Source: Tamlana sp. I1
Lineage (GTDB): Bacteria; Bacteroidota; Bacteroidia; Flavobacteriales; Flavobacteriaceae
Assembly: GCF_015355625.1 (NCBI RefSeq)
Contig: NZ_JACLAF010000004.1
Location: 186,001-250,000, forward strand
Direction: 5' to 3'
Length of the DNA stretch: 64,000 nucleotides
Under the pieces are notes generated by a model. It worked only from the letters and a program-made list of their open reading frames with translations, did no database searches and had not been told where the DNA came from. Positions 35,999 through 51,029 of this stretch are shown piece after piece. Position 1 is the stretch's first letter. Each line of letters begins with the position of its first letter. The translations under genes and the position numbers were made by a program.

Positions 35999-38900
35999 AT
36001 GAAAAAAATAATAATAGGATTATTCCTTTTAAAGGTGGTGTTTTTGTCAGCACAATCTTTACAGCACCCTGTCATTTGGACAACACCTGCAGAAAAATCG
36101 GAGGTTTTGTCAAAAATTAACAATTACACTTGGGCAAGTACTATTGTGTCTCAAGTAAAGGGGCATGTAGATTCCAAAGTAAATGCACATGTTACCAATC
36201 CGGCAGCTTTTTTAAATACTATTTCGGCATTAGCTACAGATGATAATGTATCAGAAGCGCAAGCTGGTTCAGCTATTTCAGCACACTCCTCAACTTTACA
36301 ACACGCTTCGTATGCTGCGATGATGTATTATATTTCTGGAGAAGAAAAGTATGCGCAATTCGCTGCAGATGTTTTGTGGTATTATATAGAAGAACTTGCT
36401 CCTAGAACGCCAGATAAGACTGCAATGAGCGGCAATTATTTTGCAGACCCTCGTACTGGGTATTTACAATTTGCTATCGCTTATGATTTTATGGTAAACT
36501 ATTTAAAAGAACCTGAAACTAGGGTGTATCAAAAATCTTCAGGAAATAAAATTCCTTTCGATAATGTTAAGGCGCAAGAAGCAGTGCACAATATAGCAAT
36601 GAACGCATTAGGAGAATTTACGGGTGTAGATAATAGATATGGAAGAACAGTAAGTAACCATCCTATTTTAACAGCTCCAGGTTCTTTATTTACTATACTT
36701 TGTGTAGAAGATGATGCAGAAAGGGAAAGAATGTTTAATATTTTCTGGAACATTGGAACGAGGCGACAAAACTCTTTTACCAGAACCATCTTACCCATAT
36801 TTGGAGAACAAGGTATTTGGCCTGAGCCTGTGAGCTATAGTTTTATGCCCAATGTAACTATGGTACTTAATATAGTGGATCGTCTTAAACCAGAATTAAA
36901 TGTAATGGATAATTACACGAATATATTAGATGGAAACTTTCTATTTGATAATTTAAGGCACCCTAATAGAAGTTTTGTGCGTTTTGGCGATTCTAAGAGA
37001 TACAGTGATCAAACAAGAAAAATTTATAGATATACGCATAATTTGGCATCTAGAAAGGGATTAACTGATTATGTGAAAAAAGCAGAAATAGCATTAAGAC
37101 AGGGTTATGATGCCGTTGGCGGTTACACTCCAAACATCGGAATAAGTACTTATGAAAACGTAGATGCTTTTGAACAATTGTTTTGGGCTGCAGACATACC
37201 AAATACTATTGATGGCGAAATAGATTTTCAAAAGCCAACAGTAATTATTAAACATGCAGGTGTAGCTCTACAACGCAATTATGTAGAACAGAATAATGAA
37301 GATTATGGACTTTGTGGTATTATAGGTGGGGCACATTATGTACATTCTCATGTTACAGGAATAACTATGGAATTGTATGGAGCCAACCATATTATGGCTC
37401 CTGGAGCTGGATTACCACAAACAGTTGCAGAAAGAAAATTACCAGAGCATACAAATTATTTTTGGAGACACGCAGGGAATAATACTATGATTGTAAATGG
37501 TACTACACATGGTATTCAACCTGGTTCTTGGAACTCAGATTCTTATTTATGGATGAACACAACTGTTAATGAAGCTGCAGAACCAAAACATTTAGAAGAT
37601 CCTATTAATCCTAATTTTAGTTTTGCAACTCAATTTTTGGATGATACTGTAAATAATGACCAACAGAAAAGAACACTAAGTACTATTAGAACAAGTGAAA
37701 CTACAGGTTATTATTTTGATATGTTCCGTTCTAAATCTTTAGGTACGAACAATTTTCATGACTACATATATCATAATATAGGAGATGTAACAAATATTAC
37801 GACGATGGATGGAACAGAATTAGCGGTTTCTCCAACAACAAGGTATCAAAATGATATAGGGGATTTACAAAAATCACCAGGGTGGCGTTTCTTTGAAAAC
37901 ACTAATGTTACACAAGCTACAAATGATGCTGTAAAAGTTCGATTTGATTTAGAGGAAACTAATACATATATGAACATGTTTGCACCATCAGGTGTTAATA
38001 GAGAGTATACCAAAGCACTTGGGCCAGCCACTAGGGAGGCAAAAGGAGGTTATATTAACAAGAAAACACAAATTGTAGCCATTAGACAACAAGGGGAAGC
38101 TTGGGATAAACCGTATGTACATATTTTCGAACCTTCTAAATCTGCAAACACAAGTGTTAAATCCGTAGAGCATTTGTATAGAGGAGGAGTTATTGTAGGA
38201 GCCATAGTAAAAAGTCAGATTGGAGATAAGGTTATTAAAGATTATGTTATTTGTCAAGAAGATGCTTCCAAAGTATTGAGTCTTCCAAGTATAGGAGTTG
38301 AATTTACAGGACATTTTGCAATTATTCGACGTGAGCAAGATTTGGAAAAGGCTTTTGTTACTTTATATATTGGCGAAGGAAAAAGCCTTTCCTTTGGCGA
38401 ACATTCATTACAGGTAGGAGCTAATGATAAAGGCCAAAAAATTATTGAAGTGGCAGTTGATGATAGCCGAACTCTTGGTTTTAAGGATTTAGTGAATAAT
38501 CAAGAATTTATGAAAGGTTCAGATGTGACTGTAGAGGCATTGGTTGGTTCAGGTTTTACTGAAGCGACATTATATGTTAATAATATCAATGTTGGTAAAA
38601 AAACCGCTGCTCCATTTGTTTGGTCATCAATACCTGAATTAACAAACTTAACAGAACTTAGTTATGTACTAAAAATTGAGGCCAAGGATGTTCAAGGTAA
38701 TCTTGAAGAAAGATCATTAACCATTGTAACACCTAATCAATGGCCTTATACATCGGATAATAAACCACATCCAGTTCCTGGAAAAATAGAATTTGAACAT
38801 TATGATAACGGAGGAATCGATATTGCGTACTGGGATAAAGCAAATCAAAATAGTTCATCCTTTAGACCAGATGAAATGGTAGATATTAGTAGTAATGGGC

Positions 38901-39481
38901 AAGTTGTGAGAGATATAAAAAATCTAGAGTGGTTAGAATATACAATTGACGTTGCCCAAACAGGAAATTATGAATTAGAAGTAACCCATCAAACAAGACG
39001 AAGTCCAGCATTTAGACAATTTACGGTTTCTTTTCCAGATGAAAATATGACCTTTTTAAGTGATGTCATATTAACCAATACAGGTTCTGGTGCATATTTA
39101 ACAGAATCTGTTGGGGATTTTGATTTGGAAGCGGGAGAGCATGTATTAAGATTTAGTTTATTTAATTATGGTTTTGACTTAGACTCCTTTGAATTAAAAC
39201 TAAACAGTCTTTCGGTATCAGATATTCAAAATGAAAGTAAACTCAAAATAGATGTATTTCCCAATCCAGCGAGTCATTCATTTACGGTAAAAGTGGATAA
39301 ATCTAATTGGGAGAACATTAGTATTTATAGTGTTCTAGGTAAAAAGGTTTATACCAATAACAGCGTTCAAAACAAGTTAATTATAAATACACAAGAACAA
39401 AAAATGACCAGTGGATTGTATTTTATAGTAATTCGAGACCAAAAAGGAAATCAACATACACAAAAGCTAATCTTAAAATAA
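35999..39481 (+). CDS. T9SS-secreted heparinase-like ulvan lyase candidate (PL40/PL37 type) with CBM6-like module
   Basis: An 1160-residue secreted lyase. After the signal peptide (ending FLSAQS), an (alpha/alpha) toroid (about 25-400) has HASYAAMMYYISGEEKYA, SNHPILTAPG and QGIWPEPVSYSFMP. A heparinase II/III-like beta-sheet domain follows (about 410-830, GIIGGAHYVHSHVTGITMEL, RSKSLGTNNFHDYIYHN). Next are an Ig-like linker (about 840-910), a CBM6-like module (about 920-1070, GKIEFEHYDNGG, VRDIKNLEWLEYT) and a T9SS tail (about 1078-1160, KIDVFPNPASHSF, SGLYFIVI). The paralogue at 48579 has only the lyase part. It is probably an extracellular endolytic lyase. Family PL40 versus PL37 cannot be settled by eye. 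Confidence 0.75.
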   Translation: MKKIIIGLFLLKVVFLSAQSLQHPVIWTTPAEKSEVLSKINNYTWASTIVSQVKGHVDSKVNAHVTNPAAFLNTISALATDDNVSEAQAGSAISAHSSTLQHASYAAMMYYISGEEKYAQFAADVLWYYIEELAPRTPDKTAMSGNYFADPRTGYLQFAIAYDFMVNYLKEPETRVYQKSSGNKIPFDNVKAQEAVHNIAMNALGEFTGVDNRYGRTVSNHPILTAPGSLFTILCVEDDAERERMFNIFWNIGTRRQNSFTRTILPIFGEQGIWPEPVSYSFMPNVTMVLNIVDRLKPELNVMDNYTNILDGNFLFDNLRHPNRSFVRFGDSKRYSDQTRKIYRYTHNLASRKGLTDYVKKAEIALRQGYDAVGGYTPNIGISTYENVDAFEQLFWAADIPNTIDGEIDFQKPTVIIKHAGVALQRNYVEQNNEDYGLCGIIGGAHYVHSHVTGITMELYGANHIMAPGAGLPQTVAERKLPEHTNYFWRHAGNNTMIVNGTTHGIQPGSWNSDSYLWMNTTVNEAAEPKHLEDPINPNFSFATQFLDDTVNNDQQKRTLSTIRTSETTGYYFDMFRSKSLGTNNFHDYIYHNIGDVTNITTMDGTELAVSPTTRYQNDIGDLQKSPGWRFFENTNVTQATNDAVKVRFDLEETNTYMNMFAPSGVNREYTKALGPATREAKGGYINKKTQIVAIRQQGEAWDKPYVHIFEPSKSANTSVKSVEHLYRGGVIVGAIVKSQIGDKVIKDYVICQEDASKVLSLPSIGVEFTGHFAIIRREQDLEKAFVTLYIGEGKSLSFGEHSLQVGANDKGQKIIEVAVDDSRTLGFKDLVNNQEFMKGSDVTVEALVGSGFTEATLYVNNINVGKKTAAPFVWSSIPELTNLTELSYVLKIEAKDVQGNLEERSLTIVTPNQWPYTSDNKPHPVPGKIEFEHYDNGGIDIAYWDKANQNSSSFRPDEMVDISSNGQVVRDIKNLEWLEYTIDVAQTGNYELEVTHQTRRSPAFRQFTVSFPDENMTFLSDVILTNTGSGAYLTESVGDFDLEAGEHVLRFSLFNYGFDLDSFELKLNSLSVSDIQNESKLKIDVFPNPASHSFTVKVDKSNWENISIYSVLGKKVYTNNSVQNKLIINTQEQKMTSGLYFIVIRDQKGNQHTQKLILK

Positions 39482-40963: not shown

Positions 40964-41008
40964 CAGGGTAAGCCATGATAGAATTGGTTTAACTTCTTTA
41001 TAGATTTG
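40964..41008 (+). promoter_or_regulatory. Promoter of the five-sulfatase block (site D)
   Basis: CAGGGTAAGCCATGATAGAA from 40964 is the tandem CAGG element with the second half-site changed to CATGATAG. A perfect -7 consensus, TAGATTTG, lies at 41001-41008. Its first T is 25 bases after position 40976, which aligns with the G of the second CAG in the other sites, so the geometry is identical to A, B and C. The start codon at 41051 is 42 bases after the box. Confidence 0.6.
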
Positions 41009-41050: not shown

Positions 41051-42385
41051 ATGTGTCGATTAAAAAAAATATGTTTTGTAGTACTAATGCTCGGTTTATA
41101 CTACTCTTGTGCTAATAAGTCTGGTGAAAAAAAACAGAATACCCCTGCAGAACCTGAGCCAGAACAGCAACAACCTAATATTGTCTTTATTTTGTCCGAC
41201 GACCAATCTTGGACAGATTATGGTTTTATGGGTGATGAAAATATAGAAACACCACGCTTAGATCAGTTTGCGGCTGAGAGTTTAACTTTTCAAAAAAGTT
41301 ATGTTCCAACACCTCTATGTTCACCATCCTTGGCAACTATTATTACAGGTTTATACCCTAAAGATCATGGTATTTTAGGCAATGATAAGGTGTATGATCG
41401 TTCTGGAAATAGAAAAAAGAACAGAGCTGAAGCGTACAAACCTGTAATTTCTGCTTTTGAAAAGCAAACAACTCTTCCAGACTTGCTAAAAGAAAAAGAT
41501 TATTTGTCATTTCAAACTGGTAAATGGTGGCATGGCAACCACAAAATTGGCGGTTTTGATTATGGTATGACCCATGGTAATCCTAATGAAGGTGGTCGTC
41601 ATGGCGATTTTGGTTTGCAAATAGGACGAAAAGGTTTAGACACGATTAATAGTTATTTAAATTTAGCTGCTAAAGAGAAAAAACCATTCTTTTTATGGTA
41701 TGCGCCATTTTTACCACATCAACCGCATACACCTCCACAACGCTTATTGGATAAGTATTTAAAGAAAACCGATTCAGAATTCGTAGCTAAATATTGGGCC
41801 ATGTGTGAGTGGTTTGATGAAACTTGTGGCGAGTTATTCGATATGTTCGATGAAAAAGGACTAACTGAGAACACACTTTTTGTTTATGTATGTGATAACG
41901 GTTGGGTACAAGAACCTAATAAAAATACTTATGTGAAAACATCAAAAAGAGCACCTTACGATTTAGGGATTAGAACACCAATTATGTACAAGTGGAAAGG
42001 GAAAATAACACCTAAAATGGATAATGAAACTATAACAAGTAGTATCGATATGGTACCTACCGTTTTAGATATTCTAGGTATAGATAAACCTAAAAATTTG
42101 CCTGGAGTTAGCGTTTTGAATGAAAAGGCTTTAAAAAAACGTAAAGGTATTTTTGGCGAAGTGTACGCACATGATTTTGATACCATTGAAAATAGCATGC
42201 TTTACAATATGGCCATTTTTCCTCCTTATAAAATTATAGTTCCAGACCCCGTAAGAAAGAAAGATGAGGTAGTGCAATTATTTAATATAGAAGAAGACCC
42301 ATTTGAGAAAAATAACATTGCAGAAGCAAATCCTGATATTGTTAAAGATTTGAAAGAAAAAATCAAAGTGTTTAGAACGGAGTAA
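41051..42385 (+). CDS. Sulfatase, family S1, with non-canonical CSPSL motif, lipoprotein
   Basis: A 444-residue sulfatase. The start is set at ATG 41051 (signal CFVVLMLGLYYSCANK); the longer frame from 41006 would begin inside the -7 region and is rejected. NIVFILSDDQSWTDYGFMG, GKWWHGNHKIGGFDYG and YVCDNGWVQEPN are normal S1 features. The formylglycine site reads CSPSLATIITGLYP, with Cys90 present but Leu94 where the signature has Arg. This may alter maturation or activity. The remaining metal-binding residues look intact. It is first of five sulfatases in a row. Confidence 0.88.
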   Translation: MCRLKKICFVVLMLGLYYSCANKSGEKKQNTPAEPEPEQQQPNIVFILSDDQSWTDYGFMGDENIETPRLDQFAAESLTFQKSYVPTPLCSPSLATIITGLYPKDHGILGNDKVYDRSGNRKKNRAEAYKPVISAFEKQTTLPDLLKEKDYLSFQTGKWWHGNHKIGGFDYGMTHGNPNEGGRHGDFGLQIGRKGLDTINSYLNLAAKEKKPFFLWYAPFLPHQPHTPPQRLLDKYLKKTDSEFVAKYWAMCEWFDETCGELFDMFDEKGLTENTLFVYVCDNGWVQEPNKNTYVKTSKRAPYDLGIRTPIMYKWKGKITPKMDNETITSSIDMVPTVLDILGIDKPKNLPGVSVLNEKALKKRKGIFGEVYAHDFDTIENSMLYNMAIFPPYKIIVPDPVRKKDEVVQLFNIEEDPFEKNNIAEANPDIVKDLKEKIKVFRTE

Positions 42386-42397
42386 TTAAATAGAATT

Positions 42398-43921
42398 ATG
42401 AAAAACACCCTTCTCATAGTATTGGTACTACTTGTTTTATCATGTAAAAATGAAAATAAGATGGTGTTAGATGAAGGCGATTCTAAGCCAAATGTATTGT
42501 TTATTGCCATAGACGATTTAAACAATATGATTAGCCCTATAGCTAATTTTTCTAATATTAAAACACCAAACTTTGATAGGTTAGCGGCTATGGGCGTTAC
42601 TTTTACAGATGCCCATTGTCCAGCGCCATTATGCGGACCTTCAAGAGCGGCTATAATGACGGGCTTGCGACCTTCAACAACTGGGATTTATGGCATGACG
42701 CCCGATAATAAAATCCGTAGAGATGATAATGAGGCTACTAAAGATATTATTTTCCTTCCTGAATATTTTAAGAAGAATGGTTATCATACCATGGGAATAG
42801 GCAAACTGTTTCATAATTATGCACCTGATGGTATGTTTGATGAAGCAGGTGGTCGTGTAAAAGGTTTTGGCCCATTTCCTGAAAAACGATTTGTTTGGGA
42901 TGGTTTTGGAACTTCTAAATCAAGAAAAGGGAGGTATGGCAGAACCAATACAGATTGGGGCGCATTTCCCGAAAGCGATACGCTAATGCCAGACCATCAA
43001 GCGGTGAATTGGGTTTTAGAACGCTTCAATAAAAATTACAAACAGCCTTTCTTTCTGGCCTTGGGGTTTCAAAGACCACATGTCCCATTATATGTCCCTC
43101 AAAAATGGTTCGATCTGTATCCGCTTGAGAGCATACAAACACCACCATATCAATCAGATGATTTAAATGATATTCCATCTGTAGGACTAAAAATTAACGA
43201 TTTACCTATGATGCCTTCAACAGAATGGGCTATAAATAGCGGGGAATGGAAAAAAATAATACAAGCGTATTTGGCTTGTGTCAGTTTTGTGGATTACGAA
43301 TTGGGGCGTGTTTTAGATGCTTTAGAAAATAGCCAATATGCCGAAAATACCATCATTGTATTATGGTCCGATCATGGATACCGTTTAGGAGAAAAAGGAA
43401 CCTTTGCAAAACATGCCCTATGGGAAACGGCTACCAAAGCACCTTTAATGATTGCAGGGCCAAATTTACCAAAAGGGAAAAAGATAGATGCCCCAGTAGA
43501 AATGTTATCGATTTATCCAACACTTTTGGGGTTAAGTGGTTTGCCTGCTTACTCGCGAAATGAAGGTAAAAGTCTGGTGGGCATGATGCAAAAGAATGAA
43601 GGTTTAAAAGAAGCCTATGCCATTACTACCTATGGAAAGAACAACCATGCCGTTAAAGTTGATGGTTACCGATACATTCAATATGAAGATGGGACAGAAG
43701 AATTTTACGACCATGCTTCAGATCCGAATGAATGGATTAATGCAACCAATAATTTTAAATTCAAAAGTAAAATTGAAGGCTTAAAAGCCTTGTTGCCGAA
43801 AACAAATGCGACGTGGGATGCGGAGTCCAACTATACTTTTCAACCTTATTTTGTAGAACAAAAAGCACGTGGAAATGTAGATGCTGTTAAGGCCATTAAA
43901 GTTTTTGGCGCAGAAAGGTGA
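42398..43921 (+). CDS. Sulfatase, family S1, iduronate-2-sulfatase-like, lipoprotein
   Basis: A 507-residue lipoprotein (VLLVLSCKNE). The formylglycine signature CGPSRAAIMTGLRPSTTGIYG gives Cys79. VLFIAIDDLNNM, GFQRPHVPLYVPQKWFDLYP and WSDHGYRLGEKGTFAKHALWE are typical of the iduronate-2-sulfatase-like group. It is separated by 12 bases from the previous sulfatase. The specific sulfate ester removed is unknown. It differs enough from 23756 and 47139 (insertion with KSRKGRYGRTNTDWGAFPES) to suggest a distinct substrate. Confidence 0.94.
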   Translation: MKNTLLIVLVLLVLSCKNENKMVLDEGDSKPNVLFIAIDDLNNMISPIANFSNIKTPNFDRLAAMGVTFTDAHCPAPLCGPSRAAIMTGLRPSTTGIYGMTPDNKIRRDDNEATKDIIFLPEYFKKNGYHTMGIGKLFHNYAPDGMFDEAGGRVKGFGPFPEKRFVWDGFGTSKSRKGRYGRTNTDWGAFPESDTLMPDHQAVNWVLERFNKNYKQPFFLALGFQRPHVPLYVPQKWFDLYPLESIQTPPYQSDDLNDIPSVGLKINDLPMMPSTEWAINSGEWKKIIQAYLACVSFVDYELGRVLDALENSQYAENTIIVLWSDHGYRLGEKGTFAKHALWETATKAPLMIAGPNLPKGKKIDAPVEMLSIYPTLLGLSGLPAYSRNEGKSLVGMMQKNEGLKEAYAITTYGKNNHAVKVDGYRYIQYEDGTEEFYDHASDPNEWINATNNFKFKSKIEGLKALLPKTNATWDAESNYTFQPYFVEQKARGNVDAVKAIKVFGAER

Positions 43922-43979
43922 CATAGCAATAAAATTATTTCTTAGAAGCTGTGTGTATGAAATTTAAATGAAATCAGAA

Positions 43980-45629
43980 ATGAAGAAACTTTCAAAAATC
44001 ATAATATTTGGTTTGCTAATTAGTCCTTTGTTAGCTAGCTCTCAGACCAAAAAAGACGTAAACCAAAAACCCAATATCATTTTTATTATGGCCGACGATT
44101 TAGGTTGGACAGATTTAAGTTCGCCTAACACCAGTTTAGGACATGGGTCTAAGTATTACGAAAGTCCGAATATAGACCGATTAGCTCAGCAAGGGAAGTC
44201 TTTTGCCTATGCCTATACGCAGCAAAACTGTCAACCTACTCGAGCAGCACTGCTTAGCGGCCAATATGCTACAGGGGCTCAAAATGGCGTGTATAATGTG
44301 GGAAGTCTCAAAAGAGCTTCAAAAGGTGTTGTGACACCCATCACGCCACATAATCAAAATAATTATTTACAGGAAGACTGTGTTTCTATGTTCGAAACCT
44401 TAAAAACAGCGGGCTACCATACGGCATGGTTTGGGAAGTTTCATGCTATCAAACTAGGAAAGCAAGCGGAAAGCTATATGGGTGTAGATTATAATGTGGC
44501 TTTACATAAAGAAACTAGTGCTACCGTAAATGGCGTAAAAGTGAAAAATGAGTTTTTTGCACAAAACGATGATGCAAAAGGTTGGATGTTTGAAATCGAA
44601 AATTTAAAACCCTATGCACAGCCTTACGATGCTGCTTACATTCAGAAGGTTTTAGAACCTATAAAGAACGGAAATAATCCTTGGCTTTTGGAAGGAGCAC
44701 CAAAACACCTTACCGATGCTTTAGGGGATGCCGTTGTCGATTATATAAAAGATAGATCTAAAACCGACAGTCCGTTTTTTGCTTATATTCCATTTCATGC
44801 CGTTCATGTTAGCATCCTTCCACGTCTTGATTTGGAAGCGAAATATAAAGCGAAGAAGTCTCTAGATCCTCGCCACACCCAAGCCGACTATGCTGCTTTT
44901 GTAGAGCTTCTTGACCAGACCGTAGGTCGTATTTTAAATGCACTAGAAGACCCTAATGGAGATGGAAACAAAGCAGATGGTATCGCTGAAAATACTTTAG
45001 TTATTTTCTATTCGGATAATGGTGGTTTTATGGGGCCAACCGATAATTCACCATTACGTTTAAGAAAAGGTACCTATTATGAAGGAGGTGTTCGTGTGCC
45101 CTTAATTTTTAAATATCCTGGTGTTATTACGCCTAATTCGGTGAATACGACTCAGGAAGTTCACACCATTGATTTTTATCCGACACTAGCGGAAATTGCA
45201 GGGGCTAAATTGCCAAGTCCAAAAGTGCAAGAATTGGATGGTAAGTCGATCGCGTCGGTTTTACGAGAAGAATCTCAAGTCCGTGATGATAAAAATGAAT
45301 TGTTTTGGCATTTCCCTGGCTATATGGATGTACGAAATATGCCGCAATCGGTTATTCATTATAGACATTCCGATAATCAGCATTATAAATTATTCTACCG
45401 CTACGAAGATGAGTCTTTCGAGCTATATAACCTAACTAAAGATCTGGGAGAAACCACTAATCTTTTGGCTGAAAATCCAAGTCAACAAACACTAGATTTA
45501 GCTTTAAAAATGAATAATAAACTACGAGCATGGCTGATAAGAAATAATGCCCCTACAGGAACATGGGCAAAAATCGGCGAAAAAGTACCATACCCTAAAA
45601 AAGATGACGTTAAAAAACATAAAAAATAG
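43980..45629 (+). CDS. Sulfatase, family S1, arylsulfatase-A-like
   Basis: A 549-residue exported sulfatase. ATG 43980 gives the signal MKKLSKIIIFGLLISPLLASSQ; ATG 43968, four codons earlier, is equally possible. The signature CQPTRAALLSGQYATG places formylglycine at Cys84. NIIFIMADDLGWTD, FGKFHAIKLG, YSDNGGFMGPTDNSPLRLRKGTYYEGGVRVP and the long C-terminal segment WHFPGYMD place it with the arylsulfatase-A-like group. The 3' end is rich in Lys codons (DDVKKHKK). The next sulfatase begins 6 bases later. Confidence 0.94.
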   Translation: MKKLSKIIIFGLLISPLLASSQTKKDVNQKPNIIFIMADDLGWTDLSSPNTSLGHGSKYYESPNIDRLAQQGKSFAYAYTQQNCQPTRAALLSGQYATGAQNGVYNVGSLKRASKGVVTPITPHNQNNYLQEDCVSMFETLKTAGYHTAWFGKFHAIKLGKQAESYMGVDYNVALHKETSATVNGVKVKNEFFAQNDDAKGWMFEIENLKPYAQPYDAAYIQKVLEPIKNGNNPWLLEGAPKHLTDALGDAVVDYIKDRSKTDSPFFAYIPFHAVHVSILPRLDLEAKYKAKKSLDPRHTQADYAAFVELLDQTVGRILNALEDPNGDGNKADGIAENTLVIFYSDNGGFMGPTDNSPLRLRKGTYYEGGVRVPLIFKYPGVITPNSVNTTQEVHTIDFYPTLAEIAGAKLPSPKVQELDGKSIASVLREESQVRDDKNELFWHFPGYMDVRNMPQSVIHYRHSDNQHYKLFYRYEDESFELYNLTKDLGETTNLLAENPSQQTLDLALKMNNKLRAWLIRNNAPTGTWAKIGEKVPYPKKDDVKKHKK

Positions 45630-45635
45630 TAGATC

Positions 45636-47126
45636 ATGTTTAGCAAAAAAATAGGTGTTATTATTTTTGGGGGTATAGCTCTACTACATTTAAATTGTTC
45701 AGGAAATAAAAAAGCACAAGAAGTATCAGGTACTAAGATCGAGAAGCTATCAACACTAAGCGAGAAGCCCAATATTATTTTCTATCTCGCCGACGACCAA
45801 GATGTATATGATTATGGCTGTTATGGGAACGAAAAAGTACACACACCCGCTGTTGATGGTCTAGCAAATGAAGGCATCATATTTACTAATGCGTTTACAG
45901 CACAGGCTATTTGCGCCCCAAGTAGATCACAACTTTTTACAGGGAAATATCCGTTAAAGAATGGCTGTTTTGCCAATCATACAGCAACGAAACCCGATAT
46001 AGAAAGCGTAACCGCTCACATGAAAAAATTAGGTTACGAGGTTGTATTGGCAGGAAAAAGTCATGTAAAACCAGAAAGTGTGTATCAATGGGATAGGGAA
46101 TGGGAGCCTGTGCCTAAACAAGGCGTGCCTAGAGATTATATTCCCATAGATAGTATGGCGGCTTATTTAAAAAATGCTAAAAAACCGTTTTGTATGTTCA
46201 TTACATCAAAGTACCCACATAGTAAGTATTTTGATGTTGAAAATCCACAAGCCGAGGATATCAAATTTTATCCCTTTAATGAAAATAAAAAAACGGATAA
46301 GGCCTTTATAAAAACAAAAGCAGGGTATTATAGAAGTATTGAAGAAGATAATACACAACTTGAAGAAGTTTTAAAATTGGTAGATACTTATTTAACAGAT
46401 AACACCCTTTTTATTTATAGTGCAGACCATGGGGTTTCAGGGAAATTTACCGTAAAAGACATTGGGTTAAAAGTACCTTTTGTAGCCCGTTGGCCAAAGG
46501 TCATAAAGCCAGGTACTACATCCAATCAATTGATTCACTATACCGATGTATTGCCAACGTTTATGGAAATAGCAGGTGGTAAGTCTCCGGAAGATATGGA
46601 TGGAAATAGTTTTTTACCATTATTACAAGGTAAGGATGTTGAGGTAAACAACTATGTGTACGGGGTAAGAACCAATCAGAATATATTAAATTCTGAAATA
46701 TTTCCGTCCCGTATGATTCGCAATAAGCGCTATAAATACATTAGAAACTTTAATTCAATAGAAGTTGTTGAGCAAAATTTAACAGGAAAACCCCATGTAG
46801 ATTATTTTATAGTACGAGGCGCAAAGGCTCATAAAAATGAACCTTTTGAAGAGTTGTACGATCTACAAAACGATCCTTTCGAACTGCATAATTTAGCGAG
46901 TCATCCAGACTATAAATCGATTAAAGAAAAGTTAACCAGAGACATGTTTAGCTGGATGAATGCACAAGGGGATATTTTAAGTGAAAATATGATTGGCGTA
47001 CCTATTATCACGCCAAAAGGAAACAGGGGTTTTAAATTAGATCAAGACACACCACGACGAAAAATTCCAGAGGCTAGAAAAAACACCCTTACAAAAGACG
47101 ATTATATCGTAATTGAACATTGGTAA
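45636..47126 (+). CDS. Sulfatase, family S1 (CAPSR motif), lipoprotein
   Basis: A 496-residue sulfatase with a lipoprotein-like signal (FGGIALLHLNCSGNK). CAPSRSQLFTGKYPLKNGCF gives formylglycine Cys93. NIIFYLADDQDVYDYGCYG, LAGKSHVKPES and IYSADHGVSGKFTVKDIGLKVP are the metal/sulfate-binding features. The SHGVxxxKFT arrangement is shared with sulfatases of the N-sulfoglucosamine/choline type, but this does not define the substrate. The neighbours on both sides are sulfatases, 6 and 12 bp away, so the set is a single transcript. Confidence 0.93.
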   Translation: MFSKKIGVIIFGGIALLHLNCSGNKKAQEVSGTKIEKLSTLSEKPNIIFYLADDQDVYDYGCYGNEKVHTPAVDGLANEGIIFTNAFTAQAICAPSRSQLFTGKYPLKNGCFANHTATKPDIESVTAHMKKLGYEVVLAGKSHVKPESVYQWDREWEPVPKQGVPRDYIPIDSMAAYLKNAKKPFCMFITSKYPHSKYFDVENPQAEDIKFYPFNENKKTDKAFIKTKAGYYRSIEEDNTQLEEVLKLVDTYLTDNTLFIYSADHGVSGKFTVKDIGLKVPFVARWPKVIKPGTTSNQLIHYTDVLPTFMEIAGGKSPEDMDGNSFLPLLQGKDVEVNNYVYGVRTNQNILNSEIFPSRMIRNKRYKYIRNFNSIEVVEQNLTGKPHVDYFIVRGAKAHKNEPFEELYDLQNDPFELHNLASHPDYKSIKEKLTRDMFSWMNAQGDILSENMIGVPIITPKGNRGFKLDQDTPRRKIPEARKNTLTKDDYIVIEHW

Positions 47127-47138
47127 AAAATACATACT

Positions 47139-48578
47139 ATGAAAAGATTATTTATATATACGCTGGGTTTAGTTTTAACGGTATCGGCCTGTAAAGAAGA
47201 ACAACAAAAAACATCCGTTACTCAAGAGCAAAAACCAATGAATGTTTTGTTTATTGCTGTAGATGATTTACGTCCAGAACTTAATTTTTATGGTGCTTCT
47301 CATATAAAATCACCTAACTTAGATAAGTTAGCAAGTCAGAGTTTGGTGTTTGATCGCTCATATTGTAATGTTCCTGTTTGTGGGGCATCTAGAGCAAGTT
47401 TATTAACGGGAACCCGACCTACTCGGCATCGTTTTTTCGATTATAAAGCTCGAGCCGATACAGATGCTCCAGAGGCGGTTTCTTTACCTATGACTTTTAA
47501 ACAAAACGGATATACAACCATTTCAAACGGAAAAATATACCATAATATCGATGATGATAGCCTGGCTTGGGATAAAATATGGTTTCCAAAAGGGAATATA
47601 CGTAATTACCAATTAGAGAAAAATATTCTAAAAAATGCTGATGCCAATTTAGCCATGGGAGGCGCTAGTGCTTTTGAAAATACAGATGTAAATGACGAAG
47701 CTTACTTTGATGGTGAAATTGCAAGAAAAGGCGTAGCAGATTTGCAACAACTTAAAAAGTCTAAGCAACCTTTTTTTCTCGCCATGGGCTTTATGAAACC
47801 GCATTTACCATTTAATGCACCAAAAAAGTATTGGGATTTATATGATAGAGAACAAATAAAGTTACCAGAAACCTATGTGCAACCAGAATCTACACCCAAA
47901 AAGGCCTTTCCTAATTATGGCGAGTTACGGAATTATGGAAATATTCCTAAAAAGGGAGATTTACCAGAAGATTTAGCCAAAGAATTAATACATGGCTATT
48001 ATGCCTGTGTGAGTTATGTAGATGCGCAAATTGGTCTGGTTCTAGACGAATTAGAAAAAACAGGCTTAGCAGACAATACAATTGTGGTGTTATGGGGTGA
48101 CCACGGATGGAATTTGGGAGATCACAAATTATGGTGTAAACATGTGAATTTTGAAACGGCCCTTAGTGCGCCTTTAGTAGTAAAAGTACCAGGAAAAACG
48201 AATGGAGAACACAGTAATGCCATCACCGAATTTATAGATATTTATCCAACATTATGCGAATTAACAAGCTTAGAAGTGCCAGATACGGCTGAAGGGCTTA
48301 GTTTTCTGCCGCTTATTAATGGTGAAAAGCAGATTAAAAACTGGGCGGTTAGTAAGTTTAAAGATGGGGTTACACTCGTTAAAGACGATTTATTTTATAC
48401 GGAATGGACCGATGATGATGGGGTGGCTTACGCACGCATGTTGTTCGACCATAAAACAGATCCGCTTGAATTAGATAATTTAGCTGAAAAGCCAGAGTAT
48501 CAGGAACTAGTGAAGCAATTAGCAGTAGAATTAAGACAAAAATGGGGGAAGGATTTTTTAACTCAAAATACAAAATAG
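47139..48578 (+). CDS. Sulfatase, family S1, iduronate-2-sulfatase-like with CxAxR motif, lipoprotein
   Basis: A 479-residue lipoprotein ([10 protein letters not shown]). The formylglycine signature is [11 protein letters not shown] (Cys81, Ala83 in place of the usual Pro, Arg85 kept). CxAxR sites are known substrates of the radical-SAM maturase an[37 protein letters not shown] and [19 protein letters not shown] put it in the iduronate-2-sulfatase-like group, close to the gene at 23756. Its stop is directly followed by the ATG of the lyase gene (no gap), indicating coupling of the two. Confidence 0.94.
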
Positions 48579-51029
48579 ATGGGAACTAGTGTAAGAAGAA
48601 TAAGTGTTGTGTTAATGATGTTGTTTGGGACAAATTTTTGTTGGTCTCAATCCATGCAGCATCCTGTTATCTGGGTAACCCAAGATGAAAAACAAGATGT
48701 TTTAAATCTAATAGGAAAGTATGATTGGGCTAAAAAATTGGAACAGGATTTACATGCTGTAGTAGATAAAAAAGTGGAAGCCCATCAAAAAAAGCCATCA
48801 GCAATATTATCCTATATTCCAGAAATACCAGCCGACAATTCGTTAACCGAATTTGAAGCGGTAACAGTAGGAGATCATGCAGCAGTACTTACAGATGCTT
48901 CGTATGCAGCTATGTTGTATTTTTTGACTGATGACGAAAAGTACGCTCAATTTTCGGCAGATATATTATGGCACTTTGTCTCTGTTTTATCCGATAGAAG
49001 CCCTGAAAACACTACCATTTGTGGAAATCATTTTTACGATCCGCGTACGTCTTACGCCCAATTTGCATTAGCATATGATTTTATTTATAATTTTTTAAAT
49101 AAACCGACAACCAAAGTTTATAAGGCTTCTGAAAATAAGCAACAAACTTTTGATAAAGCGCTGTTTCAAAAAGTCCTTTTAAATATGGTTGGTAGTAGTT
49201 TACAAGAATATGGTCGCCCGGATACGCATGGTAAATTTATTTCAAATCATCCTATTTTAACCGCTCCAGGGGTGCTTTATGGTATTCTTTGTATTGAAGA
49301 TGATAAAGAACGGGAGCGCTTGTTCGACGTTTTTTGGGAGAAAGGAACCGCACATCAAAATTCTTTTAAAAACACTATTTTACCAATGTTTGGTAAGCAA
49401 GGGATTTGGCCAGAATCAACAAGTTATAGTTTTATGCCAGCCGTTACTCTAGTTTTAAATATCATAGATCGTGTTTATCCTGAAATGCATGTTACTCAGA
49501 ATTATAAAAACATTTATAAAGGAAATTTTTTGTTCGATAATTTAAGAATGCCAGATGGAAGGTTTGTGAGATATGGTGATTCTAAAAGGAACCACGATGG
49601 TACAGAACAGCTATACCGGTATACACTAAATTTAGCACAACGTCGTGGGTATTCAAATTTAGAAAATCAAGCCAAAATAGCCCTCAGTCAGGCCTATAAA
49701 AGGCAAGGAGGTTATCATCCTAAAATTATCCCTTCTACTTTTGATAGCACAGGCCCTTTAAAATTATTCTGGGGAACACCTATCCCAAAAGATATCGATT
49801 CTAAAATAGATTTTAAAAAACCTACAGTATTGGTTGAGCATGCTGGTATTGCCTTGCAGCGAAACTATGTTGAAAAAGATAATGAATTGTATGGCTTATG
49901 TGGTATTATTGGTGGTGCCCATTATGTGCATTCCCATGTTACCGGAATAACTATGGAACTTTATGGTGCAGGATATGTTATGGCTCCTAATGGTGGCTTG
50001 CCTAAATCGGTAAAAGAACGAAGAATTCCTTTGCACGAAAATTATTTTAGATTGTATGCAGGTAATAATACCGTAATTGTTAACGGTACTTCACACGGTA
50101 TCCAACCAGGGTCTTGGAAAGATGGTGCCTATGTGTGGCAAAATACGGTAGTTAATATTGCCGCAGAGCCCAAACATTTGGAAGATCCTATTAGTGAACA
50201 CTTTAATTTTGCAACACAATTTTTAAAAGACACCATTAATAACTGTGATCAGGAGCGCACATTAAGTACTATTCGTACCAGTGAAAAAACGGGGTATTAT
50301 TTAGATGTATTTCGTTCTAAATCATTAACTGAAAATAAGTTTCAAGATTACATTTATCACAATATAGGTGATGCTATTTCGCTTAAAACTGCAAAAGGTG
50401 AAACGTTAACTATACAACCAACAACACGATATCAAACAGATATTGGAGATCCAGTACAATCTCCTGGTTGGCGCTATTTTGAAGACACCAAATCAACGAA
50501 ACCAACTCAAAAAGGGGTGCGAGCAACATTTCAAATTGATTATGATCAACGTTTTATGCATATGTTTGTGCCGCAAGGCGTGAATAGATCCTATACAACG
50601 GCACTGGCACCACCTACACGAGAAGCTAGAAATGGTTACGAAGAAAAACCAACTCAAATATTGGCTATAAGACAGGATGGAGAAGCTTGGGAAAAGCCGT
50701 TTATTGCCGTTTTTGAACCTTCAACAGAAAAGAAATCAAGTGTTCAAGCTGTTATGTCTTTAATGGATGGCGATAAAGTTGTTGGCGTTAAAGTAGAATC
50801 TAAAGTTAAGGGAGAATTAATTACAGATTATATTATTTCTTTAGATGGCAAAGACGGCGTGTATGAGAATAAGGCTCTGAAAGTAAAGTTTGAAGGTCGT
50901 TTTGGAATAATTAGAGTGGAAGGTAAAAATCAGTCGGTGAGTCTTTATATCGGAGAAGGAAAAACATTAAGGTATGGTAATTTTACTTTAAATACTGGGA
51001 CTTCAACCAAAGCATTTAAAGCGTATTAA
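48579..51029 (+). CDS. Heparinase-like polysaccharide lyase without secretion tail (PL40/PL37 type)
   Basis: An 816-residue exported lyase, paralogous to residues 1-830 of the 35999 gene. Shared landmarks are MQHPVIWVT, HAAVLTDASYAAMLYFLTDDEKYAQF, SNHPILTAPG, QGIWPESTSYSFMP, GIIGGAHYVHSHVTGITMELYG and HNIGDA. It ends just after the beta-sheet domain; the Ig-like, CBM6-like and T9SS parts of the paralogue are absent. A signal peptide (ending CWSQS) sends it to the periplasm. I infer a division of labour: the tailed form outside the cell, this one on imported oligosaccharides. It abuts the upstream sulfatase with no spacer. Confidence 0.78.
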   Translation: MGTSVRRISVVLMMLFGTNFCWSQSMQHPVIWVTQDEKQDVLNLIGKYDWAKKLEQDLHAVVDKKVEAHQKKPSAILSYIPEIPADNSLTEFEAVTVGDHAAVLTDASYAAMLYFLTDDEKYAQFSADILWHFVSVLSDRSPENTTICGNHFYDPRTSYAQFALAYDFIYNFLNKPTTKVYKASENKQQTFDKALFQKVLLNMVGSSLQEYGRPDTHGKFISNHPILTAPGVLYGILCIEDDKERERLFDVFWEKGTAHQNSFKNTILPMFGKQGIWPESTSYSFMPAVTLVLNIIDRVYPEMHVTQNYKNIYKGNFLFDNLRMPDGRFVRYGDSKRNHDGTEQLYRYTLNLAQRRGYSNLENQAKIALSQAYKRQGGYHPKIIPSTFDSTGPLKLFWGTPIPKDIDSKIDFKKPTVLVEHAGIALQRNYVEKDNELYGLCGIIGGAHYVHSHVTGITMELYGAGYVMAPNGGLPKSVKERRIPLHENYFRLYAGNNTVIVNGTSHGIQPGSWKDGAYVWQNTVVNIAAEPKHLEDPISEHFNFATQFLKDTINNCDQERTLSTIRTSEKTGYYLDVFRSKSLTENKFQDYIYHNIGDAISLKTAKGETLTIQPTTRYQTDIGDPVQSPGWRYFEDTKSTKPTQKGVRATFQIDYDQRFMHMFVPQGVNRSYTTALAPPTREARNGYEEKPTQILAIRQDGEAWEKPFIAVFEPSTEKKSSVQAVMSLMDGDKVVGVKVESKVKGELITDYIISLDGKDGVYENKALKVKFEGRFGIIRVEGKNQSVSLYIGEGKTLRYGNFTLNTGTSTKAFKAY

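Follow-up and report, generated by a model that had tools for sequence, protein, structure and literature searches.

Searches for sulfatases, and the naming of what they find, rely on the C-x-P-x-R signature, which is assumed to be necessary for both maturation and catalysis. What, then, is to be made of a protein with the sulfatase fold that carries Leu in place of the signature Arg? A gene for such a protein lies in a 64,000-nucleotide stretch of DNA from Tamlana sp. I1, the whole of which is called the window here. The gene and the site in question are as follows.

41051..42385, + strand: Leu-type S1-fold protein of 444 aa, recognised by PF00884, SGSH_C, an AF2 model, and Foldseek and VIA matches to S1 sulfatases

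41318..41332, + strand: C-S-P-S-L (Cys90, Leu94) where C-x-P-x-R is expected, read from the codons and from a clade tally of 146 Leu and one Ile in 147 domains

Numbered from the ATG at 41051, the codons at 41318-41332 are TGT TCA CCA TCC TTG. This bears out the C-S-P-S-L of the original prediction, with Cys90 and Leu94, and the SulfAtlas S1 signature (C/S-x-P/A-x-R) is absent from the protein. The PF00884 profile matches it end to end at 158.6 bits, above the curated cut-off of 25, and together with the S1 fold this places it in the PF00884 fold family; SGSH_C matches at 55.3 bits. There is an N-terminal signal with, read by eye, a lipobox-like LYYSC. The AF2 model has a mean pLDDT of 88.9 and a pTM of 0.86. 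The best VIA match to this predicted fold is 7stv (Z 39.6, rmsd 2.6, 372 residues); the 50 matches listed have Z from 33.8 to 39.6 and are spread across S1_16, S1_19, S1_25 and others. The top Foldseek match is 9fo1 (7.1e-29). An assignment to S1_27 is not favoured, as 6s21, which we take to be S1_27, matches at 3.8e-17, compared with 4.2e-34 for the best chain. The closest folds, which are also among the closest sequences, are the S1_16 and S1_19 carrageenan sulfatases and PyuS of P. yulinensis (9fo1, 6prm and 7stv), at about 23-27% identity. Unlike the Leu-type protein, 9fo1 reads CSPTR and GKWH in the alignment, and PyuS has CXPXR (PMC8746622; for this and every other paper cited, we refer to the parts of its text that were available).

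Is the Leu simply a sequencing error, or a lapse peculiar to one strain? The original prediction allowed for an error at this codon or for homologues that all carry Arg, and proposed an alignment to see whether the Leu is conserved. Homologues were taken from two sources. The first was 299 genomes of the organism's own family, matched at 1e-60, among which 21 have the Leu-type gene (own genome included). The second was a genome collection, represented by the best 80 of 171 coding stretches, with loci drawn partly by similarity to the query. At 103 matched places the motif is C-x-P-S-L by regular expression in 99 and C-R-P-S-L in the remaining four; L022, L026 and L031 among these are copies of the window gene itself, and some genomes are present twice. 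In the alignment Leu94 is invariant in 85 of 85 distinct sequences, the query included, so near relatives carry Leu rather than Arg. The nearest Arg codon is two base changes away from TTG. These two facts rule out a sequencing error. A pseudogene is ruled out as well, since all the homologue rows listed from the family, Bacteroidota and Planctomycetota genome searches are stop-free; one row (G684:C5) has a single stop over a slightly longer range, and is stop-free in a second search. A single scan of viral_contigs found no viral relatives of the gene. Judged by the sequences compared, Leu94 is neither an error nor a local loss.

How far does this form of the protein extend? A 27-row alignment (A1) was used as a search profile. 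A search of 395 Bacteroidota genomes with it returned 19 rows, from 17 genomes, that score at least 369 bits, and the next score is 228 bits; a tally of 38 genomes from the same search includes the lower-scoring matches. The Leu-type profile matched at 1e-70 in 39 of 294 Planctomycetota genomes, counting the centre genome, which had been picked for having the gene; of the 50 rows from this phylum 48 were looked at (30 loci and 18 of 20 stretches, that is, all but G801:C330 and the partial G964:C138). We then delimited a clade by a profile over 239 sequences as the domains scoring at least 300 bits, which yields 147 distinct domains. The lowest member scores 369.0 bits and the best non-member 227.9. 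As the clade is picked out by profile score, membership is independent of the letter at residue 94, which is Leu in 146 domains, Ile in one (L235, from Planctomycetota) and Arg in none. Cys and Arg are both present in 227 of the 264 lower-scoring rows, and one has a gap with Arg; the other 36 are gapped at both columns and are thus uninformative.

Every one of the six Leu codons occurs at this position (TTG 36, TTA 34, CTG 30, CTC 10, CTT 10 and CTA 7, in 127 domains), and pairwise identity among these 127 falls as low as 29%. Both tallies, of 127 and of 147, are of distinct domain strings, many of which come from related genomes, so the counts are not counts of independent events. In a tree of 41 rows a single branch with a support of 100/100 parts 24 Leu-type from 17 Arg-type sequences, which fits one origin. 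The clade ranges over Bacteroidota, Planctomycetota and one Verrucomicrobiia bin. By sequence comparison, the Leu-type proteins are a real, conserved, distinct and non-canonical clade with the S1 fold, and the best explanation, which we judge to be just probable, is that the clade is old.

The original prediction also described the rest of the S1 fold as intact. This holds for the fold itself, which is complete, but not for the His of the GKWH motif.

41528..41530, + strand: Trp160 at the place of the GKWH His (AtsA His115), Trp in 147/147 clade domains

In the mixed-profile alignment Trp occurs at this column in none of 228 Arg-type domains, which have His (112), Phe (71), Tyr (24), Gly (17), Asp (3) or Asn (1); this count understates His, as in Arg-type rows that read GK[IL][FY]H the His is one place further on. 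The apparent Trp at column 160 in several distant Arg-type rows of the A1 profile search was a misalignment, and the ten rows that were rechecked read GKWH or GKIYH. A loose motif count also turned up a G[KHR][WFYL]W string in two Arg frames, but these are a single gene that reads GKWHLG at the site itself and has GHYW by chance at a later position; the two Leu frames lacking the string in that count are not sulfatases. Among solved structures, 7ana and 7anb (from work on how a gut symbiont uses mucin O-glycans) read GKWG and are likewise without the His; unlike the Leu-type protein they retain the Arg.

The type enzyme of family S1 is AtsA of P. aeruginosa, whose numbered roles we take from PMC5066984 and transfer to the Leu-type protein by motif and alignment. 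In AtsA, Arg55 stabilises formylglycine and His115 is the base in the favoured release step; they are conserved in 99% and 81% of SulfAtlas, respectively (PMC5066984). Throughout the clade examined, the equivalent of the first is Leu or Ile and that of the second is Trp; on the formylglycine side, then, two hydrophobic residues have taken their place. The absence of the His115 base, a residue that is not strictly defining, is not telling when taken alone, given its 81% conservation and the Gly in 17 Arg-type domains here. The unusual loss is that of the Arg. We consider it highly improbable that these proteins are ordinary formylglycine sulfatases, in which the Leu would have little effect and other residues would do the work of recognition and binding. 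The canonical fold and most of the catalytic residues would suit this reading, as would a His that is dispensable in sequence terms, yet the Arg is 99% conserved across 4058 sulfatases (PMC5066984) and its loss here is clade-wide and coupled to Trp160 and to other residues specific to the clade.

Loss of this Arg has been described before. The 2016 SulfAtlas paper reports 11 of 4058 sequences without it, of which nine, from Lentisphaerae and Planctomycetes, have Ile or Leu and 'may be inactive' (PMC5066984). The likeness to our clade is one of description: the same Arg is lost to Leu or Ile, and the clade too has planctomycete members, one of them with Ile (L235). Section 7 of PMC5066984 mentions neither a linked Trp nor any Bacteroidota for the nine sequences. 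In the available parts of PMC9096561, PMC8511951, PMC11101340, PMC8746622, PMC6189696, PMC6698867 and PMC4505483 the loss is not mentioned. The literature searched, which took in few subscription papers, held no other paper on the Leu type, and in its available parts no test of FGE on a motif without the Arg was found. A set of 2040 PVC sulfatases matches SulfAtlas in Arg55 conservation (PMC6388578), which leaves room for only a small proportion of the Leu type among the sulfatases there.

Which residues of the site are kept? Besides residue 94, 11 positions are invariant in the clade: Asp50, Asp51, Cys90, Gln155, Lys158, Trp160, Arg193, His223, Asp282, Asn283 and Lys299. Those beyond Cys90 and Trp160 are placed as follows.

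41198..41203, + strand: Asp50-Asp51, metal ligands by alignment, 147/147

41513..41515, + strand: Gln155, clade-specific invariant, 147/147; 24/24 Leu-type rows against at most a quarter of the 17 Arg-type rows

41522..41524, + strand: Lys158 (AtsA Lys113 equivalent), 147/147

41627..41629, + strand: Arg193, clade-specific invariant Arg, 147/147; 24/24 Leu-type rows against Asp or Glu in 12/17 Arg-type rows, in a column where the alignment could slip by one

41717..41719, + strand: His223 (AtsA His211 equivalent), 147/147

41894..41899, + strand: Asp282-Asn283 (AtsA Asp317-Asn318 equivalent), 147/147 each

41945..41947, + strand: Lys299 (AtsA Lys375 equivalent), 147/147

By alignment, then, the clade has the S1 metal ligands (AtsA Asp13, Asp14, Asp317 and Asn318) as well as the equivalents of AtsA Lys113, His211 and Lys375. 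Cys90 is present in 147 of 147 domains. At Pro92, which belongs to the maturation motif, 145 domains have Pro and two have Ala. The PF00884 fold, the metal ligands, the Cys, the Pro, Lys158, His223 and Lys299 are all shared with family S1. Two further Trp residues mark the clade, Trp285 (146/147) and Trp254 (138/147). In a planctomycete side branch (L219-L222 and L224-L228) the motif is GK[FY]W instead of GKWW and the place of Trp254 is taken by Gln (seven) or Glu (two); every genome in this branch also has another match to the Leu-type profile.

As far as an alignment can tell, the kept residues form the pattern of a working site. Inactivity by plain decay, which the original prediction had left open, is unlikely: not one of the 147 domains has changed Cys90, a metal ligand, Lys158, His223 or Lys299, and pairs among 127 of these domains share as little as 29% identity. 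Such invariance suggests that the chemistry at Cys90 is probably kept and that the formylglycine side of the pocket has probably been rebuilt; it also argues against the SulfAtlas guess of inactivity. The gene marks a distinct and probably working group of enzymes rather than a dying gene and, by its fold and its other residues, the protein probably works like an S1 sulfatase.

On balance we lean towards a clade whose members carry out catalysis at Cys90 and hydrolyse a sulfate ester, which in the window would be that of an ulvan-type oligosaccharide, with the formylglycine-facing side of its pocket rebuilt. The Leu-type protein would be an exported glycan esterase, most likely a sulfatase, that acts on such an oligosaccharide beside canonical sulfatases. 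As in AtsA, the metal, Lys158, His223 and Lys299 would hold the sulfate and help the leaving group, and the nucleophile would be a residue made from Cys90. Leu94 and Trp160 may provide a hydrophobic floor at the spot where the formylglycine diol would otherwise contact Arg and His, in which case the enzyme must release sulfate with no help from that His. A compensating role may, as a guess, fall to Arg193 and Gln155, and Arg193 could be a stand-in for the lost Arg. Against all this stand the missing base of the favoured release step (AtsA His115), the 99% conservation of the Arg and the inactivity guessed for the nine Ile or Leu sequences (all PMC5066984).

Does Cys90 become formylglycine at all? 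A relaxed enzyme may mature the protein, as the original prediction suggested. Loss of the Arg might remove both the maturation signal and the formylglycine clamp, so that Cys90 stays unmodified and a metal-bound thiolate attacks the sulfate or another ester. We hold this to be rather doubtful. It would agree with CXPXR being the recognition motif of FGE (PMC4505483), and with Leu94 and Trp160 replacing two residues that stabilise or serve formylglycine (PMC5066984). In the choline sulfatase of E. meliloti an unmodified Cys in such a pocket turns over without formylglycine, but this enzyme, unlike the Leu-type protein, has C-X-P-X-R (PMC6189696). Against an unmodified Cys90 stands the +2 position, which in all 147 domains retains Pro or Ala as the maturation motif does.

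The maturation enzymes themselves were also looked for. In the organism's own genome no FGE was found at 1e-30 with a flavobacterial FGE-like protein (L172) as the query, and no anSME above the cut-off. Three proteins match PF03781, namely GldK and GldJ (545.7 and 598.3 bits to their NCBIfam models) and a 258-residue protein that adjoins a copper-oxidase-like gene (named by eye). This lack of a recognisable maturase would suit an unmodified Cys90, but the genome has 37 PF00884 matches (two are pieces of one 558-residue frame), and since more than 30 other PF00884 genes face the same lack, it says nothing special about the Leu-type gene. Among 28 genomes with the Leu-type gene 16 have an FGE match at 1e-30, again with the L172 query, which also counts against an unmodified Cys90. 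Of the 12 without, two have anSME above the cut-off and ten have neither enzyme at the thresholds used (the own genome and nine others). The same-genus genome G084 gave a partial FGE match only, and G291 gave none. With a single query protein distant FGEs could be missed, and the pattern across these genomes neither supports nor opposes maturation of the Leu-type protein. In work on F. agariphila a sulfatase was made by co-expressing that organism's own FGE (PMC8511951), which shows that a usable FGE exists in one flavobacterium at least.

What surrounds the gene? The original prediction placed it at the head of a five-sulfatase block, and indeed five consecutive PF00884 genes lie on the same strand at 41051-48578. 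The four that follow are all of the Arg type.

42398..43921, + strand: Arg-type sulfatase, CGPSR, adjoins the Leu-type gene; nearest solved relative 6hhm

43968..45629, + strand: Arg-type sulfatase, CQPTR; nearest solved relative 9fo1 (S1_16)

45636..47126, + strand: Arg-type sulfatase, CAPSR; nearest solved relative 7lha (exo-L-galactose-6-sulfatase)

47139..48578, + strand: Arg-type sulfatase, CGASR; nearest solved relative 6hhm (F. agariphila S1_7 ulvan sulfatase)

41001..41008, + strand: TAGATTTG, claimed -7 box, not above chance

The 'perfect -7 box' that had been read upstream of the block is present in its letters, but TANNTTTG is rarer in the window (64 occurrences) than in shuffles (mean 97.4), so the box carries no weight. 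The window also holds an endo-ulvan-lyase beta-trefoil gene (PF24208), two GH78 and one GH106 rhamnosidase genes (PF17389, PF17132), and GH2, GH3, SusC/SusD and alginate-lyase-family genes. The Leu-type gene therefore shares the window with the ulvan lyase, rhamnosidase and SusC/D genes of an ulvan locus. The ulvan enzyme 6hhm has a near relative in the gene at 47139-48578, which unlike the Leu-type protein keeps the Arg; the Leu-type protein matches 6hhm at only 2.7e-17. A link to the P19 gene of F. agariphila, suspected from gene order, was dropped.

This context recurs in part. In 67 Bacteroidota loci (L052-L118; several end at contig ends, and L125, also from Bacteroidota, is uncounted) a relative of the 42398-43921 sulfatase is present in 56, and in 41 it begins no more than 400 bp past the downstream end of the Leu-type gene. 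Upstream of that gene, 40 loci have a BNR gene, and GH106 or GH78 is present in 45. In 13 loci (L119-L131) no other window gene, GH106 and GH78 included, was matched at 40% identity or more, and the substrate there may accordingly differ. Two other window proteins also have relatives in such loci. The one at 48579-51029 (816 aa) lies in the ulvan locus, has no Pfam match, and has relatives near the Leu-type gene in L052 (62%) and L095 (59%). The one at 35999-39481 (1160 aa) matches only a secretion tail and a sub-cut-off CBM35, with 59-86% identity in nine homologous loci.

The association with canonical sulfatases goes further in planctomycetes, where a Leu-type domain and another S1 domain are fused in nine frames (L123, L200, L201, L209, L218, L229, L230, L231 and L232). 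The Leu-type domain comes second in five and first in four. The Arg of the partner domain is visible in eight of the nine, L200 being without those columns. For both orders to exist the domains must have been joined at least twice, which speaks for their acting in the same pathway. The original prediction had missed these fusions to a second sulfatase domain, as well as the clade and the linked His-to-Trp change.

Fusion and neighbourhood would also suit a protein that binds a sulfated glycan, or props up a canonical sulfatase, and hydrolyses nothing. This was among the suggestions of the original prediction, and we regard it as unlikely. Two catalytic residues have been lost together, the nine fusions and the conserved sulfatase neighbour fit the role of a partner, and inactivity was the SulfAtlas guess for nine such sequences (PMC5066984). 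A binding protein could keep the same residues, and a fusion to an Arg-type domain suits a non-catalytic partner too, both of which are points against catalysis at Cys90. The invariance of Cys90, Asp50, Asp51, Asp282, Asn283, Lys158, His223 and Lys299 in 147 domains tells against a pure binding role. Dead enzymes usually lose their nucleophile or their metal ligands.

A further reading, which we hold to be possible but less likely than not, is that a widespread branch of the sulfatase fold has dropped the Arg/His clamp of formylglycine and would use a different nucleophile chemistry at the same Cys, in a pocket lined by Leu and Trp, as a working partner of canonical sulfatases. The nucleophile might be a thiolate left unmodified, or formylglycine that skips the usual elimination step. 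A clade of this size, in which the Arg is always absent but every other main catalytic residue save the His is kept, offers a natural test of the roles of the Arg and the His. The Leu-type protein might, as a speculation, explain a desulfation step in ulvan use. Scans for the signature would miss the clade, though it is not rare (39/294 Planctomycetota and 21/299 own-family genomes).

A different joining is seen in one planctomycete locus (L124:7911-12314), where a frame of 1468 aa begins with a Leu-type domain and has a cytochrome c domain (PF00034) at its end; the part between them includes a rhamnosidase-N-like stretch that scores below the cut-off.
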